Positions 52,504 to 64,000 of a DNA stretch of 64,000 bases are shown here, one piece after another. The DNA comes from Salinibacter grassmerensis (GTDB lineage Bacteria; Bacteroidota; Rhodothermia; Rhodothermales; Salinibacteraceae). Made by a program: the position numbers and the translations under genes. The notes below the pieces were generated by a model. It saw only the letters and a program-made list of their open reading frames with translations. It ran no database searches and was not told the DNA's origin. The DNA lies in the NCBI RefSeq assembly GCF_947077765.1, contig NZ_CAMTTF010000001.1:186001-250000 (forward strand), written 5' to 3'. Each line of letters begins with the position of its first letter. The first letter of the stretch is position 1.

Positions 52504-53595
52504 ATGGAGATGTCCGGTTCTGACACATATGAGTTCGTTCAAACGTGTCTCTCGCACCGCTCTGACGCGGCGCGGCGCGAGGCGGCCCGGCCGTTCCTCG
52601 AGGCCGGTGTCGACTGGAATGCCGTCCAGCGCCTGGCGCGCCAGCACCGCGTGCTTCCGCTCTTCTTTCGAGGCCTGGAAGACCTCCTCGGCCCTGAACT
52701 TCCGCCTCCGATGCACGAGCAGATTCAAGAGCACAGACGGGGCGTTCGGATCCGCAACACATTTCTGGCGCAGGAGCTTGGCCGCGTGTGCCGGCGGTTC
52801 GACGATGCGGGACTGCCGCTCTTGGCCATGAAAGGCCCTGTGCTCGCACAATCTGCATACGGCGACATTGCCCTGCGGTACTCGGTAGATGCGGACGTGG
52901 CAATCCCCGGTGATCAATTTTCAGAGGCTGACCGCCTCCTAAATGATCTCGGATACGAGCCCGCTCCCAAGCGAAAGGGCATGAGTGGGTGGCGAGCGTC
53001 CCTGTCCCGCTACCTCGATGGCCAGTGGGAATTTACGCGAGGGAATACGTTCACCCTGGATGTGCACACCCGGCTGATGCCGCCCGGATATGCGTTCTCT
53101 TCGGACTTCCATACGTTTTGGGAGCAGGCGCGTCCTGTTCGCCTCGCCGACGACGCTGTGGTGACGGGGTTCTCCCCAGAAGATCGACTCCTGGTGCTCG
53201 TCCATCATGGCATCAAGAATCAGTGGCGGGCCCTGCGCCACGTCGCGGACGTTGCGGCCACTATTCGGGGGGCAGACATGGACTGGGACGCTTTGAGCGC
53301 CCGCGCGGAAACGATGAATTGCACCCGCGCGCTGAAATTGGGCCTTCACATGGCCCGCGGCCTTTTGGATGTGATGCTCCCGAGCCGCGTCGAGGAACGC
53401 TTTCTGGATAGCTCCACCGAGAACGTTTTCGCGTCCATGAAATCATATCTGCAGAGCCGCCCACAGCAGTCATCGCTGCCGCTTACGGATCGCGTGCATC
53501 TCCAGATTGCGACGAAGGATTCCCTCACGGACCAGGTGCGCTACGGGGCCCACTCGGTACTGCATCACCTCTGGTCGGGCCTGCTCAGGCCGTAG
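52504..53595 (+). CDS. nucleotidyltransferase-family protein of the lasso-type cluster
   Basis: 363 residues from the ATG at 52504. VLPLFFRGLEDLLGPELPPP and AGLPLLAMKGPVLAQSAYGD with LRYSVDADVAIPGDQFSEAD are the core of the uncharacterised nucleotidyltransferase family PF14907 (pattern LKG, Y, R..D.D). Members of that family are often found in kinase-containing lasso peptide clusters of the paeninodin/pseudomycoidin kind, where they act after the kinase. The gene lies 42 bases before the B1 gene, so it is probably cotranscribed. The acceptor here is unknown. Confidence 0.75.
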   Translation: MEMSGSDTYEFVQTCLSHRSDAARREAARPFLEAGVDWNAVQRLARQHRVLPLFFRGLEDLLGPELPPPMHEQIQEHRRGVRIRNTFLAQELGRVCRRFDDAGLPLLAMKGPVLAQSAYGDIALRYSVDADVAIPGDQFSEADRLLNDLGYEPAPKRKGMSGWRASLSRYLDGQWEFTRGNTFTLDVHTRLMPPGYAFSSDFHTFWEQARPVRLADDAVVTGFSPEDRLLVLVHHGIKNQWRALRHVADVAATIRGADMDWDALSARAETMNCTRALKLGLHMARGLLDVMLPSRVEERFLDSSTENVFASMKSYLQSRPQQSSLPLTDRVHLQIATKDSLTDQVRYGAHSVLHHLWSGLLRP

Positions 53596-53637: not shown

Positions 53638-53928
53638 ATGGAATCAACCATGATCGATGAGTCCTCCGTCATCGTTGCGGCGGAGCACCAGACTTCCGCA
53701 GAAGTGGACGGGGAGAGCGTTATTCTAGACCTGGAGGAAGGAATCTATTACGGACTGAATCCCGTCGGGGCTCGGGTCTGGGACCAAGTCCAAGAGCCCG
53801 CCACCGTCGAAGAGATTGTGGCGGCCATCACGGCCGAGTACGATGTGGATTCTGAGCGGTGCCTCAAAGATGTACTCTCCCTACTCCGTGACCTCAAGGA
53901 GGACGATCTGATCGAGATCAAGGAGTGA
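53638..53928 (+). CDS. PqqD/RRE protein, lasso peptide B1 (leader-recognition) homologue
   Basis: A 96-residue winged-helix protein of the PqqD family, the RiPP recognition element that binds the precursor leader and presents it to the peptidase and cyclase. VILDLEEGIYYGLNPVGARV and WDQVQEP (residues 28-54) are the family core, followed by the helical part TVEEIVAAITAEYDVDSERC and LLRDLKEDDLIEI. It precedes the asparagine-synthetase-like cyclase gene by 76 bases. A second PqqD-like gene is at 63493. Confidence 0.9.
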   Translation: MESTMIDESSVIVAAEHQTSAEVDGESVILDLEEGIYYGLNPVGARVWDQVQEPATVEEIVAAITAEYDVDSERCLKDVLSLLRDLKEDDLIEIKE

Positions 53929-54004
53929 GGTCTACTCTCGGGCAGGAGCCCCCTGATGAGCTCGGGGCTTTTGGGCCATGCCTTCCAAAAACCCTCTACG
54001 GCGT

Positions 54005-55930
54005 ATGAGCGGCATCGCGGGCCTCTACTATCTGGACGGGCGTCCGGTTGACACCGATATTAACCGGATGGTCGATAAAATGGAGCACCGGGGTCCGGAC
54101 GAACAGGCGGTTTGGACCAGTGGCCCAGTCGGAATTGGGCACTGCATGCTGCACACGACTCCTGAATCGCTTCACGCCTCTCTCCCCCAAGAAAGTTCGC
54201 AGAGCGGCTGTGTCATCACCGCCGACGCACGAATCGACAACCGAGAGGATCTCATCCAGGGTCTTCGGCTGCCCACAGACCCCGACCGGGTCATCCCGGA
54301 CACCACGCTGATCCTACGAGCCTACGAAGAATGGGGGCGGGACTGCGTTCAGCACCTGCTCGGGGCATTTTCCTTCGCGATCTGGGACCCGAGGGAAGAA
54401 CACGCATTCTGTGCCATTGACCACTTCGGAGTCCGACCGCTCTACTACTATCATGAGCAGAGAAGAATCTTCGCGTTTGCCTCCGAGATCAAATCCTTGC
54501 TTGCCCTGGACGACGTTCCCGAGGAACCCGACGAGGTCCGGCTTGCCGACCACCTCCTCACACCAATCGAAGAAGACTCGACGCGCACGTACTTCAAGGA
54601 CATTTCCGGACTGGCTCCCGCACATGTTTTCACCGTCGGGCCGAACCACGCCACAGAAACACAGTACTGGGCGCTTGATCCGAGCCAAGAAGTGCAGCTC
54701 TCCTCCGACGAGGAGTACGCCGAGCGGTTTCATTCCCTGTTTAGGGATGCCGTAGGGGCGCGGCTGAGAAGCACCACTCCCGTCGGCTGTATGCTAAGCG
54801 GGGGGCTGGACTCCTCATCGATTGCGTGTCAGGCAGCCAAGATGTCCGGAAGATCATCGGGCTCTCCTTCGGTTCATACGTTCTCAGCAGTCTTCGGGGA
54901 GGAGACGGGATCCGACGAAAGCCCCTATATCAAGTCCGTGCTTTCGAAGTACGACGAGCTCCAGCCTCACTTCATTCAAGGAGACGAAAAAAGTCCACTC
55001 GCCGATTGGGACGAGCTTTACGAATATGTAGATGGCGCCTGCACGGCTGGAAATATATACATTTTCTGGAGGTCCAACCGTAGTGCAAGAGACCACGGCA
55101 TCCGGGTCATGCTTGATGGATTCGATGGAGATACGACCGTCTCATATGGGAAGGGGTTTTTCTACGAGCTCCGGGAGGAAGGCCGACTACTAAGACTGGC
55201 AACGGAGGCCGCCCTTTTGGCGAACCATTGGGGCGAGTCTCCACGGCATGTGGCCTGGAACTGGGTCAAGGGGTCTGTCGTCTCCCTGCCTGTGATTTCT
55301 CAGCTTATGAAAGTGCGACAATACCTGAAGGGGCAGAGCGAAGACGCTCCAGAACGTCACATGGGCCCCGCGTGGCAGAACATGCTGAGTGAAGAGACGG
55401 CTCGAAAAGTAGCTCCTCACGTAAGCAACGACAACGGGTCCGCTCCAAAGACAGACCACGAACATCACCGTGCGCAGCTGGACCAGGCGGTCATGAAGCG
55501 CATTTTGGACTTGTGGAATCAGGTAGGGGCGGCCTCGTCGGTGGAGACCAGATATCCCTTCTATGACAAGCGCCTCGTGGAATTCTGTCTTGCTCTCCCT
55601 CCCGAACAAAAAATCCGGTGGGGGTGGGACCGGTTTGTCATGCGTCGTGCGATGGAAGGAGTACTCCCATCGGCCGTGCAGTGGCGGGAAGACAAGGGAG
55701 ACTTGAGTCTCGCCCTCGATGAGAACCTCATAGCCCACGAGCGTCCTCTACTTAACCGTTTGATGGATGATGACTTCGGCGGTGTCGACCGATTCGTATC
55801 TTCTGATCATCTGCGAGAGGCTGTGCGGAATTACCTCGATGGAAAAACCGGTAGTGGCCACGAAGGCAAAGGGCTCTTCGTCTGGCGTGCCCTTTCACTT
55901 GCTCTTTGGTTGCGCCACAGAGATCTGTGA
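54005..55930 (+). CDS. asparagine-synthetase-like lasso cyclase (C protein)
   Basis: 641 residues from the ATG at 54005 (MSGIAGLYYLDG); an upstream ATG at 53978 adds nine. Ordinary AsnB begins Met-Cys with the catalytic glutaminase Cys; here it is Ser, as in many lasso cyclases that do not use glutamine. The N-terminal amidotransferase-like domain keeps HRGPDEQAV and FSFAIWDPREEHAFCAIDHF. The C-terminal ATP-pyrophosphatase domain has CMLSGGLDSSSIACQAAKMS (SGGLDSS at about 264-270) and later MLDGFDGDTTVSYG. It would adenylate the Asp side chain of the precursor core and close the ring. Directly upstream of the precursor gene. Confidence 0.88.
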   Translation: MSGIAGLYYLDGRPVDTDINRMVDKMEHRGPDEQAVWTSGPVGIGHCMLHTTPESLHASLPQESSQSGCVITADARIDNREDLIQGLRLPTDPDRVIPDTTLILRAYEEWGRDCVQHLLGAFSFAIWDPREEHAFCAIDHFGVRPLYYYHEQRRIFAFASEIKSLLALDDVPEEPDEVRLADHLLTPIEEDSTRTYFKDISGLAPAHVFTVGPNHATETQYWALDPSQEVQLSSDEEYAERFHSLFRDAVGARLRSTTPVGCMLSGGLDSSSIACQAAKMSGRSSGSPSVHTFSAVFGEETGSDESPYIKSVLSKYDELQPHFIQGDEKSPLADWDELYEYVDGACTAGNIYIFWRSNRSARDHGIRVMLDGFDGDTTVSYGKGFFYELREEGRLLRLATEAALLANHWGESPRHVAWNWVKGSVVSLPVISQLMKVRQYLKGQSEDAPERHMGPAWQNMLSEETARKVAPHVSNDNGSAPKTDHEHHRAQLDQAVMKRILDLWNQVGAASSVETRYPFYDKRLVEFCLALPPEQKIRWGWDRFVMRRAMEGVLPSAVQWREDKGDLSLALDENLIAHERPLLNRLMDDDFGGVDRFVSSDHLREAVRNYLDGKTGSGHEGKGLFVWRALSLALWLRHRDL

Positions 55931-56103
55931 TGGAAGCTGATATCAATAATCCAAAAGATGAGGAATAATTGCGCCATATTTTTTCATATTCCGAATAATA
56001 AGTGCAACAAGTATATCACCTGATGCATTAGCCTAGAGGTAGCTATCATGCTGCGGAAATCGTCCGCAGTCCATTACTCTTCTCACAATTGTGGGGTACT
56101 GTT
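55931..56103 (+). promoter_or_regulatory. AT-rich leader region of the precursor gene
   Basis: 173 bases, much AT-richer than the flanking genes, between the cyclase gene and the precursor. It contains a small perfect hairpin, CTGCGGA (56051-56057), loop of 5, TCCGCAG (56063-56069), and a perfect 10-base palindrome CACAATTGTG at 56084-56093, ending 10 bases before the ATG. A GGGG at 56093-56096 may serve as ribosome site. The layout suggests a separate promoter for strong precursor expression; the palindrome could be an operator. Both functions are inference. Confidence 0.4.
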
Positions 56104-56256
56104 ATGAACGAAAAAAAGGAATACATCAAGCCGTCAATCGTGAACTACGGCTCCGTTGAAGAGGTCACGCGCGGAGGCGGTGCATCTTCGTCTGATGGCC
56201 AAGGTGATAACACGGCGTACAGCCCTGGCCACCCGGGTTATGATGCAAACGCATAA
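56104..56256 (+). CDS. lasso peptide precursor (A gene), 50 residues
   Basis: A 50-residue frame starting MNEKKEYIKPSIVNYG. The leader contains the lasso signature YxxPxIxxxGxxxxxT exactly (Tyr7, Pro10, Ile12, Gly16, Thr22), with Thr at the penultimate leader position before Arg23. Cleavage after Arg23 would leave a 27-residue core beginning Gly24-Gly-Gly. Counting from Gly1 of the core, the only acidic residue at positions 7-9 is Asp8 (Asp31 of the precursor), giving an eight-residue Gly1-Asp8 macrolactam. Candidate plug residues in the tail are Tyr16, His20 and Tyr23. The core ends Asp-Ala-Asn-Ala, not Ser. It lies 170 bases after the cyclase gene and before a strong hairpin. Confidence 0.85.
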   Translation: MNEKKEYIKPSIVNYGSVEEVTRGGGASSSDGQGDNTAYSPGHPGYDANA

Positions 56257-56280
56257 GCGTCTACTACTCTTCACTCGAAG

Positions 56281-56316
56281 ACAGAAAGGCGGGAGTGTTC
56301 ACTCCCGCCTTTCTGT
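56281..56316 (+). terminator. perfect 15-bp hairpin after the precursor gene
   Basis: ACAGAAAGGCGGGAG (56281-56295), loop TGTTCA, then CTCCCGCCTTTCTGT (56302-56316): an uninterrupted 15-base-pair stem 25 bases after the precursor stop codon. There is no long T tract behind it, so it may be a terminator, an attenuator, or an mRNA 3'-end stabiliser that lets the precursor be made in excess over the downstream kinase gene. Confidence 0.75.
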
Positions 56317-56491
56317 ATGTGGGCTCAACTTAGGAAAGTGCAGACTGGTGAACTGGGTTCGACACGTCTTATCAGGTGTCTTACTCGTTAATGGATTAAG
56401 AGCTGAATCCAACTTCCGTTCAGAATAGCCGGAGACGGATCCCACCGGCTGGTATCTCCCCAACAAGGCAACACGCTCAAGACTATCTATA

Positions 56492-57442
56492 ATGGAAGAT
56501 ACAAGGCATCTGTACAGCGCATTCGGGATCAATATATCTTCAGATGTGCGAATTCCGGAGCTGAACGCGAAAAGGAAAGGGCCCATTCATGCCGAGATTA
56601 AATACGGAAGTATGGAAAGCCCCTCCCTTCCAGATAGAAAATATTCTTCCAAGGTCACCAGAGAAGGCGAGGGGTTTTTGTGTTACATCAAGAGTATCGG
56701 AGGGGTTAAGGTCTGTGACGACAGAAGAATCATTGTTTCGCCGGAGAAGGGAGCCGAAGAGAAAGGATTCCGCTTTTTAGTCTCCGGAATCGCGATTGGG
56801 CTCTTGCTTCATTTGCGGGGACTTGTCACTCTCCATGCAAGCGCCGTTGTGATCGAGGGGCGCGCTGTGGCTTTCGTGGGCCGCTCGGGGATGGGGAAGT
56901 CAACCACCGCGGCCGCCCTTCACTCGCGTGGACACCCCATCATCACCGACGACCTTCTCGTGCTCGACACGACTGGCGGCTCCGTACAGGCCTATCCTGG
57001 CTTTCCCCACCTGAAGCTGACCCCCGAATCAATCGTCAAGTCCGTCAACAAAGACCCGGACCGCATTCCCAAGATTGATCCGGGAGGGCCTAAGCACTCA
57101 TTCGAAGCGGAAAAGAATTTCGTGGATGAGCCTCTTCCTCTACAGTGCATGTACGTGCTCGATTACAAGGAGGACGAGAACAGACCTAACGGGTTTTCGG
57201 CTCCATTCAGTGAAGCGATCACGGGCAAAGATGCATGCATCGAACTCGTTCGCAACTCGTACGTGGGTCGTTTGCTTCCTGAGGAAGCTGTCACGCCACA
57301 TCACCTAAAGCGGAGTGCGGAAATTGCACAGTCCGTACCGGTCCGCCGCCTGCGCCGCGAAAAGTCCCTGAGCGCGCTCTCCTCTCTAGCTGCCTTCATC
57401 GAGCAGGAGCACGCCCCCAACGGACGATCCAGCGAAGCATAA
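56492..57442 (+). CDS. HPr-kinase-like protein (lasso-associated kinase)
   Basis: A 316-residue P-loop kinase. LVTLHASAVVIEGRAVAFVG and RSGMGKSTTAAALHSRGHP (Walker A GRSGMGKST at about 129-137) with IITDDLLVLD form the HPr kinase/phosphorylase C-terminal fold. The first 100 residues are not the HprK N-terminal domain. In paeninodin-type lasso clusters such kinases phosphorylate a C-terminal Ser of the precursor. Here the precursor ends in Ala, so another residue (core Ser5-7, Thr14, Ser17) or another substrate must be used, if it is active. It lies 235 bases after the precursor. Confidence 0.8.
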   Translation: MEDTRHLYSAFGINISSDVRIPELNAKRKGPIHAEIKYGSMESPSLPDRKYSSKVTREGEGFLCYIKSIGGVKVCDDRRIIVSPEKGAEEKGFRFLVSGIAIGLLLHLRGLVTLHASAVVIEGRAVAFVGRSGMGKSTTAAALHSRGHPIITDDLLVLDTTGGSVQAYPGFPHLKLTPESIVKSVNKDPDRIPKIDPGGPKHSFEAEKNFVDEPLPLQCMYVLDYKEDENRPNGFSAPFSEAITGKDACIELVRNSYVGRLLPEEAVTPHHLKRSAEIAQSVPVRRLRREKSLSALSSLAAFIEQEHAPNGRSSEA

Positions 57443-57505: not shown

Positions 57506-58525
57506 ATGGCGATTCCTGTTTCCATACTGATCTGTACGCGGAATCGAGCTTCCCACCTACGGAAGACGCTTCAGTCGGTCAGTCGAGTCTCGATCCCGGA
57601 TCGCCTCGACCCCGAGTTGATCGTCGTGGACAACGGGTCGACGGATGAGACCGCCGAGGTGATACGGGCCACTTCTGCTGAGAGCATGCCGCTCCGTCGC
57701 GTGACCGAGCCAACCCCAGGAGTTGCGCGGGCTCGGAATGCTGCCATTCAACACGCGGAAGGGCGCCTCCTTCTGTGGCTAGATGACGATGTCCGAGTCC
57801 CGGGGAACTGGCTCCACTGCATGACGCGGCCAATCCTGGAGACCGAGGCTGATGCCGTCGCCGGGACGGTCGAGCTTCCCTCTCACCTGGAGCGGACCTG
57901 GATGCAACCGTTTCATCGCACGGCCCTGGCCTCAACAGAGTCCATTGATTCTGAGACTCCCCAGAACATCATCAGTGCAAATATGGCGTTCGACCGGGCC
58001 GTGCTTGCGGATGTGCCCGGCTTCGATCCCGAACTGGGCCCCGGGAGCCAGGTGGGCGCGCTGGAGGATACGCTGTTTTCCTGGCAACTGCGAAGCGCCG
58101 GATATCGAATCGGGAGGGTCACGAAGACGGCCGTAGAACACCACTTCGATGAGCAACGATTGACCCGAGACGCGTTCATCCGGGCAGCCATCGCCCGCGG
58201 GAAATCGCTCGCGTACATCCGCTACCACTGGCTCCACTATTCCCAGGAGGACTGGACCCATCAGTCTCATGCGTATGAGGTGTGGCGCCATCCTCAACTC
58301 ATCCTGGCGAAGCGATTGACCGATTGGACCGTCCAGCGATGGCTTCACTGGTTTAAGGCACGTCCGGCCCCAATCGAGCGGCGGGAATTTTGGACCCTCC
58401 TAAACGCGTATAGCCTCCGCCAATACCTCCGAGAGCGGACGCGTCCCCGACATTACAAAGAGCGGGGGCTCGGAAAAATCCGCGGTGAGCAACTCCCTCA
58501 GCGTCGTGAAGGATCAAAGCCATAA
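57506..58525 (+). CDS. glycosyltransferase family 2 inside the lasso-type region
   Basis: A 339-residue GT-A enzyme. VSILICTRNRASHLRKTLQS, LIVVDNGSTDETAEV and the metal site LLLWLDDDVRVPGNWL are complete; ALEDTLFSWQLRSAGYRIGR and VTKTAVEHH form the C-terminal acceptor region. It lies 63 bases after the kinase gene in the same direction. It may belong to the polysaccharide system, or it may decorate the lasso peptide; the sequence alone does not decide. Confidence 0.85.
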   Translation: MAIPVSILICTRNRASHLRKTLQSVSRVSIPDRLDPELIVVDNGSTDETAEVIRATSAESMPLRRVTEPTPGVARARNAAIQHAEGRLLLWLDDDVRVPGNWLHCMTRPILETEADAVAGTVELPSHLERTWMQPFHRTALASTESIDSETPQNIISANMAFDRAVLADVPGFDPELGPGSQVGALEDTLFSWQLRSAGYRIGRVTKTAVEHHFDEQRLTRDAFIRAAIARGKSLAYIRYHWLHYSQEDWTHQSHAYEVWRHPQLILAKRLTDWTVQRWLHWFKARPAPIERREFWTLLNAYSLRQYLRERTRPRHYKERGLGKIRGEQLPQRREGSKP

Positions 58526-58964: not shown

Positions 58965-59930
58965 ATGACTCCCCGCCCCGACATTTCAATCGTGATTCCG
59001 TGCTACAACTCGGAGACGTTCGTCGAGGCCACGGTCCGCTCCGCGTTGAACCAAACGTTCTCGACCGAGGAAGTTATCTGTGTCGACGACGGGTCGACCG
59101 ATGAGACCCTTGAGGTGCTCCGGTCCATTCAGGAGGACGACGGGCATCTAAGCGTTCACGCTCAGGAGAACCAGGGCATCTGCGGGGCCCGCAATACGGG
59201 ACTCAGAATAGCCAACGGGGAGTATGTGGCCTTCCTCGACCACGACGATGTACTCGAGGCCAATAAACTGGAGCACCAAGCCAAGCTGATTGCCGACTGC
59301 TCGTTTCGCCCAGACTTTGTAGCGGCCGCCTACGAAGAGGTCTACCCGGATCAAGAACGTGCCCCCAAAACCCGACCCGTCAACACTGCTGATCCCTGGA
59401 TCGGCCTGATTCATGCCCGGCTCGGGCGAACGAGCAGCAACCTTTGGCGAAAGACTGCCATCCAAGAGGCGGGCGCCTGGCAGGACGCAGATGGCCTCTC
59501 ATTGGACACCGGGCTCATGTTTCGAATGCTCACGCACGACTGCCAGATGCTGGAGGACCCTGCTTCACTGACGACCCGGTATGTGCGGGCGACCTCGGCC
59601 TCCATGGCCGACCGTATCGCGCAGTGGAGCACCTTCCTAGACCTACGGGCGAAAATTCTGCGGCACTTGCGTTCCCACAATCGCCTCACGCAGGCCCGGG
59701 CCAAGGCCCTTCATCTGGACATGATCCAGGCGGTGCGAGGACTCTACGAACACGATCCCGAACTGGCCGCGCGCAAGCATGAGAATCTCGTCCGGGGACA
59801 TTTCCGATCGTCGGACGCGGCGTTCGGGCCAGGACGCTTGTACAGAGCGCTCTACCGGACGCTCGGATTCCAGTACGCAGAAGCAATGTACCCCTTGTGG
59901 CTTCGCTTTCGACAACTACTTCTAAGCTAG
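58965..59930 (+). CDS. glycosyltransferase family 2
   Basis: A 321-residue GT-A enzyme. ISIVIPCYNSETFVEATVRS, VICVDDGSTDETLEV and the metal site YVAFLDHDDVLEANKLEHQA are present; GRTSSNLWRKTAIQEAGAWQ is the mid-domain acceptor loop. Its ATG immediately follows the last codon of the asparagine-synthetase relic, suggesting the two once formed an operon. Confidence 0.85.
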   Translation: MTPRPDISIVIPCYNSETFVEATVRSALNQTFSTEEVICVDDGSTDETLEVLRSIQEDDGHLSVHAQENQGICGARNTGLRIANGEYVAFLDHDDVLEANKLEHQAKLIADCSFRPDFVAAAYEEVYPDQERAPKTRPVNTADPWIGLIHARLGRTSSNLWRKTAIQEAGAWQDADGLSLDTGLMFRMLTHDCQMLEDPASLTTRYVRATSASMADRIAQWSTFLDLRAKILRHLRSHNRLTQARAKALHLDMIQAVRGLYEHDPELAARKHENLVRGHFRSSDAAFGPGRLYRALYRTLGFQYAEAMYPLWLRFRQLLLS

Positions 59931-60102: not shown

Positions 60103-61467
60103 ATGACCCCGACACAGCCGAATTCTCATTCCGGCGCTCCAGCCTCGTCCGGGAGCCGACCCTTCGAGATGCGCAATCGCCTCCGCGCGCTCGACTCGAC
60201 GATCGATGTTGCGATGGCCGGGGCCGGGGCGATGGGCCGCGGGCTGCTTCACCAGTGCCTGGCGACGCCCGCCTTCCGGTGTGTGGCATTGGCGGACCCC
60301 GACCTCGAAACCGCCATCGACTGCGCCGAAGCGGCCGACGTTCCCTACGAGGTGGTGTCCGACATCGGGGCTCTTCACGACTGCATTCGGAATGGTCAGA
60401 TGGCGGTCTGCAAGGACGCCGCGCTGGCCGCCCGGGCCAACCCGGCCGAGGTGTTCATCGATGCCTCCAACGCCATCCAGGACGCCGCCCGGTTCTGTCC
60501 AGTGGCGCTCGACCACGGCAAGCACCTCGTCATGATGAACGCCGAGGCAGATCTGGCCTTCGGCCCCTACCTCATGCAACAGGCTGCGGAGCAGGGCGTC
60601 ACGTACGCCAGTTGTGACGGCGACCAGCACGGGGTGATTAAGCGTCTCGTGGACGACTTGCGGCTCTGGGGGTTCGACCTGGTCATGGCCGGCAACATCA
60701 AAGGATACCTCGATCGCTACGCAAATCCGACCTCAATCATCCCTGAGGCGGACAAGCGGAATCTTGACTACCACATGTGCACCGCGTACACGGATGGGAC
60801 GAAGCTCGGCGTGGAGATGGCCCTTTTGGCCAACGCCCTGAACCTCAAGACGCCCATGCCTGGGATGCATGGCCCCAAAGCCGACCACGTAAGAGAGGTA
60901 CATGACCTTTTCGACCTAGAAGCGCTCTGGAAGGAGCACGGTCCCGTAGTAGATTACATTCTAGGGGCCGAACCGAACGGGGGCGTGTTCGCCGTCGGAT
61001 ACTGCGAGGACGCTTACCAACAGCGGATGATGGAGTACTACAAGAGGGGCGAGGGGCCGTTCTACATCTTCTACCGTCCCTATCACCTGTGCCACGTAGA
61101 GGCGATGGACGCCATTGCGACCGCCGTTCTTGATGATCGCTCGCTCCTGCAGCCGGAGCACGGGCACGTGGCCGACGTATACGCCTACGCCAAAAAAGAT
61201 CTTGTCCCCGGTGATCAGCTCGACGGCATCGGGGGCTACGCGTGCTACGGCCTGATCGAGAATTGCGCTAATCAAGACCGGCAGCCGGGCATTCCGGTGA
61301 CCCTAGCCGATGATGTGCGCGTGACCACCAAAATTGAGAAGGACGAGAAGATTCCGGTATCGGCGGTCGAGATGGACGGAGACCGTGCAGATCTTCAATT
61401 GTACAGGAAGTCGCTCGCGTCTTGCCAGGCCCCAACCGTCGAGGCTTTTTCTGAGGCCCGTCCGTAG
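60103..61467 (+). CDS. NAD(P)-dependent oxidoreductase with Rossmann and SAF-like domains
   Basis: 454 residues from the ATG at 60103; the earlier start at 60004 lacks similarity. DVAMAGAGAMGRGLLHQCLA (about residues 34-53) is the dinucleotide-binding motif, as in homoserine-dehydrogenase-like enzymes; HLVMMNAEADLAFGPYLMQQ continues that fold. The C-terminal part YAKKDLVPGDQLDGIGG and GIPVTLADDVRVTTKIEKDE resembles a SAF/antifreeze-like domain. Proteins of this type appear in nucleotide-sugar and other secondary-metabolism loci. Role in this region is unknown: sugar precursor synthesis or peptide tailoring are both possible. Confidence 0.7.
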   Translation: MTPTQPNSHSGAPASSGSRPFEMRNRLRALDSTIDVAMAGAGAMGRGLLHQCLATPAFRCVALADPDLETAIDCAEAADVPYEVVSDIGALHDCIRNGQMAVCKDAALAARANPAEVFIDASNAIQDAARFCPVALDHGKHLVMMNAEADLAFGPYLMQQAAEQGVTYASCDGDQHGVIKRLVDDLRLWGFDLVMAGNIKGYLDRYANPTSIIPEADKRNLDYHMCTAYTDGTKLGVEMALLANALNLKTPMPGMHGPKADHVREVHDLFDLEALWKEHGPVVDYILGAEPNGGVFAVGYCEDAYQQRMMEYYKRGEGPFYIFYRPYHLCHVEAMDAIATAVLDDRSLLQPEHGHVADVYAYAKKDLVPGDQLDGIGGYACYGLIENCANQDRQPGIPVTLADDVRVTTKIEKDEKIPVSAVEMDGDRADLQLYRKSLASCQAPTVEAFSEARP

Positions 61468-61518: not shown

Positions 61519-63429
61519 ATGAGCGACCGAAACCTTCCGGAGCCCAGTGAGGCCCTGCAGAACGTTCGCCGTCTTCTCGCCTACGTGCCCCGAGCGCTGA
61601 CTCTCATGTGGGAGGCTGCCGCCCGCTGGATGATTGCGTGGGGAATCCTCCTGGTTATTCAAGGCCTTCTTCCGGGAGCCAGCGTCTATCTGACGAAGTG
61701 GGTCTTGGATGGCGCCTCCCAAGCGATTGGGAAAGGCTTGGCGTGGGGGAATGCCCAGCTGATCGTCATTCCGGGCGGGCTTATGGCACTTGTGCTCCTT
61801 CTCCAACAGGTCGCCCAGGCCGTCAATGGATGGGTGCAGACCTCTCAGGCTCAGCACGTCGAGGACCACATTCAGAACCGAATTCACGACCAGGCCGGTC
61901 GGCTTGACCTTGCTTTTTACGAGTCTTCCGACTACTACGACACCCTCAATCAGGCCAGTAGCCAGGCCAGCAACAAATCTTTGGAGGTGCTGCAACAACT
62001 AGGGGGGCTTTTGCAGAACGGCATCACACTGGCTACAATTGCCGGCATTCTCGTTCCGTACGGGCTCTGGATCCCACTAGTGCTCATCTTTAGCACCCTT
62101 CCGGCCCTCTACGTGGTAGTCAAGCATAACCAGAAGTACCACGACTGGTGGGAGAGACGAACCATGAATCGCCGGCGGGCGCAGTACTACCATTTGATCC
62201 TGACGTACGACTACGCGGCACAGGAAATGAGAGCCTTCGATCTGACCGATCACTTCGCCGAGGCGTACAGTGACATTCGGGACTGGCTTCGAGGTGAGCG
62301 CATCGAGCTCGAAAAGAACAAGGGCTTGGCGACGATTGGGGCTGGGCTGACGGCTCTCGCCGCGATGGGGATTGTGATGGGAATCATGGCGTGGCGGGCC
62401 ATGCGCGGGCTCGCGACAATCGGCGATCTGGGGCTGTTCTACCGGTCCTTCCGAGAAGGGCAGGGCTTGATGCGGAGTTTGCTCCAGAATGCGGGGAAGC
62501 TCTACACGAATGCCATGTTTCTTGAACACCTGTTCGACTTCCTATCGTTCGAGCCGACAATCCAAAACCCGGATAAGCCACGAGATGACTTGCCCGTTCC
62601 GCAACAGCACGTCGCCTTTGAAGACATCTCGTTTCACTACCCGGAGACCGATGCTCACGTGCTAAAAGACTTTTCCTTAACCATCCCTGCCCAAAAAGTA
62701 ACGGCCATTGTCGGTGAAAATGGAGCCGGCAAAACGACTCTGTCGAAGCTTCTTGGCCGCCTCTACGACCCACAGGAGGGGCGTGTGCTCGTCGATGGGA
62801 TTGACATCCGTGATTATCGTGTCGAAGATCTACGCAAACAGATCACGACGCTGTTTCAGCAGCCGATTCAATACCAGGCCACAGTAGCCAAGAACATAGT
62901 TGTGGGTGACATCCGCCGTGAGCCCGATCCGGACGCGCTCAGGGATGCGGCCCGCCGGGCCATGATCCACGAGACAATCATGAAGCTTCCGGATGGATAC
63001 GAGACACAACTGGGCCAGTGGTTCAGGGGTGGGACAGATCTGAGCGGGGGGCAGTGGCAACGGATTGCCTTGGCTCGGGCGTACTACCGTGACGCCCCCA
63101 TCGTCATCCTCGACGAGCCGACGAGTGCGATGGACTCGTGGGCCGAGAACGAGTGGCTACAAAGCTTTGGCCGTCTCGTGGACGAGGGACGCACGGCGTT
63201 CATCATCACCCACCGCTTCACGACCGCGATGCACGCGGACATCATCCACGTGATGGACAACGGCGAGATCATTGAGTCGGGAACGCACGAAGAACTTGTG
63301 GACCAGGAGGGACACTACGCAGAATCCTGGCGGAATCAAGTAGAGCACGGATGGCGAGCGGCCGATACAGGACCGGAAAACGCTCCCGTCTCCCCACCGG
63401 TCTCATCGGGCACGCCCCCACAGTCCTGA
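61519..63429 (+). CDS. ABC transporter with fused domains, probable lasso peptide exporter (D protein)
   Basis: A 636-residue half-transporter: N-terminal membrane domain with about six helices (MIAWGILLVIQGLLPGASVY, LMALVLLLQQVAQAV, ATIAGILVPYGLWIPLVLIF, TIGAGLTALAAMGIVMGIMA) and a C-terminal ATPase with Walker A GENGAGKTT (about 399-407), signature LSGGQWQR (about 508) and Walker B IVILDEPTS (about 530). It resembles exporters that follow lasso and other RiPP genes. It precedes the second PqqD and cyclase genes by only 63 bases, so it is probably in their operon. A polysaccharide flippase role is less likely, given 18514. Confidence 0.8.
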   Translation: MSDRNLPEPSEALQNVRRLLAYVPRALTLMWEAAARWMIAWGILLVIQGLLPGASVYLTKWVLDGASQAIGKGLAWGNAQLIVIPGGLMALVLLLQQVAQAVNGWVQTSQAQHVEDHIQNRIHDQAGRLDLAFYESSDYYDTLNQASSQASNKSLEVLQQLGGLLQNGITLATIAGILVPYGLWIPLVLIFSTLPALYVVVKHNQKYHDWWERRTMNRRRAQYYHLILTYDYAAQEMRAFDLTDHFAEAYSDIRDWLRGERIELEKNKGLATIGAGLTALAAMGIVMGIMAWRAMRGLATIGDLGLFYRSFREGQGLMRSLLQNAGKLYTNAMFLEHLFDFLSFEPTIQNPDKPRDDLPVPQQHVAFEDISFHYPETDAHVLKDFSLTIPAQKVTAIVGENGAGKTTLSKLLGRLYDPQEGRVLVDGIDIRDYRVEDLRKQITTLFQQPIQYQATVAKNIVVGDIRREPDPDALRDAARRAMIHETIMKLPDGYETQLGQWFRGGTDLSGGQWQRIALARAYYRDAPIVILDEPTSAMDSWAENEWLQSFGRLVDEGRTAFIITHRFTTAMHADIIHVMDNGEIIESGTHEELVDQEGHYAESWRNQVEHGWRAADTGPENAPVSPPVSSGTPPQS

Positions 63430-63492: not shown

Positions 63493-63786
63493 ATGGCTTC
63501 CCTCGATGATTCCATCGCGGCAACGAATTCGTTCGCGAGCGCCGAGGTGGAGGACGAGCGCATCCTTCTGGATCCCGAGACGGGAACGTACTACGGCCTG
63601 AATCCGGTTGGCGACCACGTGCTCCGCATGGTGGAGGACGCAGAGACGGGGAGCCTCGCAATCCGCAGCGTCGTCGATGCCTTGCACGACGCGTTTCCGG
63701 ACGAAGACTACGAGCGTATCGCCGAAGACGTACTCACGTTCATCGATGAGATGGAAGACTTTGACCTTCTTCTCGTGCGCGACTGA
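63493..63786 (+). CDS. second PqqD/RRE (B1-like) protein
   Basis: A 97-residue PqqD-family protein. RILLDPETGTYYGLNPVGDH and VLRMVEDAETGS match the first copy at 53638 (YYGLNPVG motif), while the rest differs, so it is a diverged paralogue and not a recent duplication. It directly follows the ABC exporter gene and precedes the second cyclase gene by 64 bases. It implies a second precursor beyond the window or shared use of the precursor at 56104. Confidence 0.85.
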   Translation: MASLDDSIAATNSFASAEVEDERILLDPETGTYYGLNPVGDHVLRMVEDAETGSLAIRSVVDALHDAFPDEDYERIAEDVLTFIDEMEDFDLLLVRD

Positions 63787-63850
63787 CCATCTCATCCAGG
63801 CACCCCGCAAGCGTTAAAGTCCGCAGTGCCACCGTGAGTATCTAGCCTCT

Positions 63851-64000
63851 ATGAGCGGAATTGCTGGCATCTGCTACACGGACGAGCGCCCCGTAGACCG
63901 GGCCGTCCTTCATCGCCTCTTGGAGGCCCAGTCCCATCGAGGGCCAGACGGATGGGGAGTGCAGTGCAACGCGTCCGTCGGCGTCGGGCATCTCGCGCTA
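63851..64000 (+). CDS. second asparagine-synthetase-like cyclase, 5' end only
   Basis: The frame starts MSGIAGICYTDERPVDRAVL and continues HRGPDGWGVQCNASVGVGHL before the window ends. It has the same Ser in place of the catalytic glutaminase Cys as the cyclase at 54005, marking it as a likely lasso C protein and not an ordinary asparagine synthetase. Only 50 residues are visible. Confidence 0.8.
   Translation, partial: MSGIAGICYTDERPVDRAVLHRLLEAQSHRGPDGWGVQCNASVGVGHLAL

Follow-up and report, generated by a model that had tools for sequence, protein, structure and literature searches.

The question raised by this locus is whether a 50-amino acid reading frame within a 64,000-nucleotide stretch of Salinibacter grassmerensis DNA (the window, by which we mean the whole of the stretch analysed) encodes the precursor of a lasso peptide, and whether the genome holds the genes to mature it. 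The reading frame, whose translation is MNEKKEYIKPSIVNYGSVEEVTRGGGASSSDGQGDNTAYSPGHPGYDANA, was assigned as follows.

56104..56256, plus strand: lasso precursor A, with leader residues 1-23, core GGGASSSDGQGDNTAYSPGHPGYDANA and a predicted Gly1-Asp8 isopeptide ring (NF033521; homologues in G055, G034 and G046)

The translation agrees at every named position with the leader pattern given in a first-pass annotation, YxxPxIxxxGxxxxxT with Thr at -2: the leader has Tyr7, Pro10, Ile12, Gly16 and Thr22, followed by Arg23, and the core runs from Gly24. The same annotation had described a lone acid at core positions 7-9, a 19-residue tail and Tyr16, His20 and Tyr23 as the bulky residues of that tail, and all of this is borne out: the 27-residue core consists of an 8-residue ring, GGGASSSD, and a 19-residue tail, with Asp8 (Asp31 of the precursor) as the sole acid within positions 7-9. 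The core ends in YDANA, with Ala as the last residue and no C-terminal Ser. An alternative TTG start is possible 15 bases upstream. With Gly24 as core residue 1, the leader Tyr, Pro and Ile fall at -17, -14 and -12, the positions described for lasso leaders bound by an RRE (PMC10368454), and Thr22 falls at -2.

A strict form of this pattern, Y..P.[ILV]...G.{5}T.[GASCN].{5,7}[DE], has a single match across all six frames of the window, compared with a mean of 0.005 matches per dinucleotide-shuffled window (200 shuffles), which argues that the match is not due to chance. The first-pass label of "unannotatable" has to be dropped, because the NCBIfam model NF033521 (lasso_leader_L3) scores the precursor at 23.8 bits (24.0 bits genome-wide) against a curated cutoff of 19. 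Neither Pfam nor NCBIfam has an entry that matches the core itself.

The precursor gene lies within a run of genes on the same strand, all of whose reading frames are open:

52504..53595, plus strand: nucleotidyltransferase (N gene, presumed to be PsmN-like in role; PF14907, 2.7e-57)
53638..53928, plus strand: B1, PqqD-like leader-binding RRE protein (PF05402, 1.3e-22; NF033536 lasso_PqqD, 79.2 bits, just under the cutoff of 80)
54005..55930, plus strand: lasso cyclase C, asparagine-synthetase-like (NF033535, 689.1 bits, cutoff 525; PF00733 and GATase_7)
56492..57442, plus strand: HPr-kinase-like peptide kinase K (PF07475, 2.1e-7, below the gathering cutoff; catalytic H-G-G-G-K-S-D-D intact)
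57506..58525, plus strand: GT2 glycosyltransferase GTa, inside the cluster (PF00535)
58965..59930, plus strand: GT2 glycosyltransferase GTb, inside the cluster (PF00535)
60103..61467, plus strand: DRL-type oxidoreductase, inside the cluster (PF21135, 5.7e-42)
61519..63429, plus strand: ABC exporter, D gene (PF00005/PF00664)

The start of the nucleotidyltransferase gene at 52504 was set from comparison with a congener, and its product is 71% identical to the copy in G006 and 50% identical to that in G004. The cyclase likely starts with MSGIAG at 54005, within an open reading frame of 53978-55930; it has the SGGLDS motif, and the N-terminal Cys of asparagine synthetases is replaced (MSGI). Thus the leader model NF033521 and the cyclase model NF033535 are both matched above their curated cutoffs, and the locus has the cyclase adjoining the precursor, the Y-17xxP-14 leader with Thr-2, the acid at core 7-9 and B1 that mark a lasso cluster. 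What it lacks is a B2 gene: this transglutaminase-like protease is absent from the cluster, and none is encoded beside the cyclase of a second lasso cluster that follows the first and runs past the end of the window.

63493..63786, plus strand: B1 of the second lasso cluster (PF05402, 1.9e-12)

The second cluster (63493-64000 of the window, continuing into L007:851-4258) comprises B1, a cyclase (588.7 bits), a precursor and a kinase, and is orthologous to the second cluster of the congener G006, the cyclases being 75% identical. Leader spacing puts the core of its precursor at AVGHGWHFD... (core AVGHGWHFDGSFCQLDEVLDPDEWGHTHRQDPS), with a predicted Ala1-Asp9 ring; NF033521 scores this precursor at 15.9 bits, below the cutoff. 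Past this cluster lies a further homologue of HprK-related kinase A (L007:5678-6706; TIGR04352, 50.7 bits, below cutoff), whose relative in G006 (L061:1163-2176) adjoins another PqqD-like gene and perhaps belongs to a separate system.

A search of the whole genome recognised a single B2 gene (C1:263532-264050, minus strand), ca. 21 kb downstream of the precursor and beyond the second cluster, from which it is separated by 10 kb and a change of strand. This arrangement, together with the presence of B2 directly before C in the closest homologous clusters, could mean that the window cluster encodes a genuine lasso precursor and ceased to function when it lost its own B2. We regard this as quite unlikely. 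The distant protease is intact, retaining two residues common to all eight aligned B2 proteins (Cys in PCLTQAL and His in HAWVE), and is 85% identical to the second, similarly placed, of the two B2 proteins of the congener G010. Moreover, in G006 two tandem lasso clusters are accompanied by a single B2. The open frames of the window cluster also argue against decay, as do the dN/dS values of its conserved neighbour genes relative to G004, which lie far below 1 (0.06-0.34 where computable, with dS near saturation, and saturated for K). Because B2 need not be linked, its absence makes the cluster less complete but leaves the precursor in its class, and the economical reading is that the one distant B2 probably serves both precursors of the genome.

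The evolution of the locus was traced by comparison with congeners. In G004 the order is NTP-B1-C-A-K-GTa-GTb-DRL-ABC-B2, the only congener with the GT2/DRL order of the window. Between the two, ABC and DRL are 81-82% identical and GTb 70%, whereas C and K are only 39% identical and the precursors differ; GTa has a counterpart at the same position that is 46-48% identical. Exporter identity is 78-81% across the clusters of G004, G006 and G010. Against G006, the values are 80% for the exporter, 75% for the second cyclase and 35% for the first. A conserved exporter stands beside a divergent B1-C-A-K block, which suggests cassette exchange at this locus.

The intergenic DNA around the precursor gene was examined as well. 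A simple scan, which covers promoters of the sigma-70 type and not organisms with other promoters, found none at the locus, and a scan of the locus for intrinsic terminators was likewise negative. Two hairpins flank the gene:

56050..56070, plus strand: small hairpin 5' of the precursor start (-12.8 kcal/mol, z -3.4 for 56040-56080)
56281..56316, plus strand: perfect 16-bp hairpin with a 4-nt loop and no T run, just 3' of the precursor gene (-34.1 kcal/mol, z -7.1 for 56270-56330)

Ten other precursors were checked for such a downstream hairpin; none is followed by anything comparable, though one has an 8-bp stem. One guess is that this structure may shield the precursor message at its 3' end. 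An apparent second copy of the precursor at 242281-242316 (minus strand) was rejected, since the match is the hairpin against itself.

To learn which precursor positions are conserved, we searched for homologues. Two were found among 60 relatives, in G055 (37 residues aligned at 62% identity) and in G034. A profile search that covered 245 genomes of the class also yielded G046, along with weaker leader matches. A contig scan with the single precursor as query found no relative; with the precursor alignment, the sole match was the Rhodothermaceae MAG contig JAHQVL010000125.1, which is identical with G055. A sample of 395 genomes across the phylum yielded only the window genome (G000) and G034, but it lacked the known G055 and G046 and so does not bound the range of the family; a search of plasmids found no relative. 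In G055 and G034 the homologous precursors are embedded in contiguous B1-B2-C-A-K-ABC loci. Alignment of these two with the window precursor shows Thr22, Ser30-Asp31-Gly32-Gln33-Gly34 and Thr37 to be invariant, and Thr22, Asp31 and Thr37 remain so once the more distant G046 is added. The first-pass annotation had proposed invariance of Thr22, Gly24 and Asp31 as a check on its reading. Thr22 and Asp31 are kept in all three homologues, so the departure that it named as counting against a lasso precursor with a Gly1-Asp8 ring does not occur in them and that reading is supported; Gly24 is not kept, being replaced by Asn in G055 and G034 and by Gln in G046. This does not refute the predicted ring, because it is the position, rather than the residue, that is conserved.

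We then collected 27 precursors adjoining lasso cyclases of the same class, seeking leader-like reading frames without regard to core acidity. Asp or Glu occurs at core positions 7-9 in 23 of the 27, against a mean of 10.5 and a maximum of 18 in 2000 core shuffles. Every one has Thr exactly 15 residues past the aromatic of [Y/W]xxP, which is partly an effect of selection. Core residue 1 is varied (Ala 6, Gly 5, Asn 4, Gln 4, Thr 3, Lys 2 and one each of Glu, Ser and Asp). A maximum-likelihood tree of 24 cyclases places that of the window in a clade of seven (support 96/97), all of whose precursors have Asp8. Gly1 is found within this clade only in the window precursor; the others begin with Glu (G004), Asn (G048, G037, G055 and G034) or Gln (G046).

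Several precursors of the class depart from the usual acid position. Those at L025:3636-3785, L025:3840-3995, L028:1196-1354 and L032:3630-3779 stand beside the class's top-scoring cyclases (up to 847 bits) and have standard leader spacing, yet lack an acid at core 7-9 (for example GSCWYGKQGGQYDADLGPGTLSDCR); their main acid lies near core 13-15, and they share a Cys early on and end in S-D-C-[R/H]. In G014 and G021 (L101:1648-1803, L101:335-571 and L101:120-344; L104:3446-5294), a single cyclase is followed by three precursor-like reading frames, each of which ends in DCS and lacks an acid at core 7-9. In the first precursor of G006 (L055:7074-7220) the acid is found at core 10 (QNDKVGSVSD), which may indicate a 10-residue ring or a shifted register.

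The tail bears on whether the product would be threaded. Its few bulky residues, and an 8-residue ring of Gly, Ala and Ser with little side-chain bulk, would fit a branched-cyclic peptide that is made by a real leader and cyclase, with plugs too weak to hold the tail in the ring. Tyr and His can, however, serve as plugs in known lassos, and a T-x-[Y/C] motif at the position of Tyr16, which includes Thr14, is kept in seven of seven clade members, two of which have Cys at this position followed by a second Cys. We therefore consider a non-threaded product very unlikely, and retain the clade-level tail motif, seen in sequence, as a lead. A more widespread T-x-[F/Y/L]-S tail motif (9 of 25 tails versus 0.3 when shuffled) was dropped, because the pattern had been chosen post hoc and did not recur in a few fresh precursors. 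Processing in another register, whether with a core that begins at Gly2 (7-residue ring to Asp8) or at Gly3 (6-residue ring), or with ring closure at Asp12, is extremely unlikely: three consecutive glycines leave the start ambiguous by residue and core residue 1 varies among relatives, but the Thr-2/Tyr-17 spacing is equal in 27 of 27 precursors, even if leader-like frames were what the collection asked for, and the acid conserved in the clade is Asp8, not Asp12.

Candidate genes for modification of the peptide fall into two groups. The first comprises the kinase and the nucleotidyltransferase. H115, G130, G133, G135-K136-S137 and D153-D154 are invariant in seven cluster kinases, and the motif equals the one that BsfK carries and requires (PMC10368454). 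Known lasso kinases mostly target a C-terminal Ser, and in pseudomycoidin the nucleotidyltransferase PsmN attaches hexose to the phosphate (PMC9266682). The window locus has the H-K-D-D kinase motif of the paeninodin type without the C-terminal Ser acceptor, and it encodes a PF14907 nucleotidyltransferase, a candidate for the role that PsmN has in pseudomycoidin. Since the core ends in Ala, an internal phosphorylation site is expected; the predicted candidates for modification by K are the ring residues Ser5-Ser7 and the tail residues Thr14 and Ser17. There is precedent in BsfK, which phosphorylates Ser3, inside the ring, of a core with Asp as its last residue (PMC10368454).

The second group consists of GTa, GTb and DRL. 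It is doubtful that these are dedicated tailoring genes and that the product is glycosylated by glycosyltransferases of its own, beyond a PsmN-type route. Of 13 congeners, only G004 has close copies of GTb (71% identical, same position) and DRL (83%); in G000 and G004 alike the two genes sit at this position of a lasso cluster, with differing precursors. A polysaccharide origin of the trio is possible, because DRL relatives of 39% identity in G001 and G012 share their contigs with GT2 matches no more than 6-9 kb away.

Among the closest described systems is the Bsf cluster of Bradymonas sediminis (PMC10368454), which resembles that of the window in having A, split B1/B2, C, an HPr-like kinase K and a nucleotidyltransferase N, as well as a predicted Gly1-Asp8 ring, a Tyr-17/Pro-14 leader and a precursor without C-terminal Ser. 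It differs in that its leader has Ile rather than Thr at -2 and its core is different, while the cluster of the window includes GT2 and DRL genes and has no linked B2. Paeninodin and pseudomycoidin (PMC9266682) share the cluster kinase, in the latter case with a nucleotidyltransferase, and a cysteine-free lasso architecture; unlike the window peptide, whose core ends in Ala, they carry phosphate or hexose on a C-terminal Ser.

From the genes, motifs and conserved positions read in the DNA, we infer a course of ring formation, threading, modification and export that would lead to an active product. B1 (53638-53928) would grip the leader via Y-17, P-14 and I-12, and the B2 cysteine protease would cleave after Arg-1, most likely in trans from its gene ca. 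21 kb downstream. The cyclase (54005-55930) would activate Asp8 with ATP and link it to the amine of Gly1, forming the ring GGGASSSD, through which the 19-residue tail would be threaded and held by Tyr16 and/or His20/Tyr23. Kinase K probably phosphorylates a Ser or Thr of the linear precursor, the PF14907 protein may decorate the phosphate, and the ABC protein would export the product.

It is very likely that the reading frame encodes precursor A of a cysteine-free (class II) lasso peptide with an 8-residue Gly1-Asp8 ring, and that this whole pathway, with B2 acting in trans, applies. This reading is favoured because leader and cyclase (689 versus 525 bits) exceed curated cutoffs, the G055 and G034 precursors have the same gene set around them, Thr-2 and Asp8 are conserved with an acid at core 7-9 in most relatives, the kinase motif is complete, the genome has an intact B2, and the dN/dS of the neighbour genes is low. 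Against it we count the missing B2, whose service in trans is assumed; the variable core residue 1, which leaves Gly1 assigned by position; the kinase and B1 scores below some curated family cutoffs; the lack of a C-terminal Ser; and the negative result of the simple promoter scan.

A literature search found no lasso peptide study for this lineage. The usual residue 1 of lasso peptides is Gly, Cys, Ser or Ala, and metanodin, reported in 2025, is the first lasso with Asn1 by experiment and the only one so far (PMC12670498). Metanodin resembles the window precursor in its Thr at -2 and its use of Asp as acceptor, and its residue 1 is the Asn predicted for the closest relatives of that precursor; it differs in that the window core has Gly1 and in its origin from a gammaproteobacterium (PMC12670498). 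Thus the window peptide is one new core in a well-known class, with an ordinary Gly1 in a clade whose first ring residues are otherwise unusual. Its clade relatives, with Asn, Gln or Glu at residue 1, are chemically more unusual and represent almost unexplored chemistry. The natural pairings of cyclase and precursor in this clade could be used to study what determines the first ring residue. Protease sharing and cassette exchange, too, can be tested here, where two clusters in tandem have a single B2 at a distance and the exporter is conserved next to a block that has diverged.
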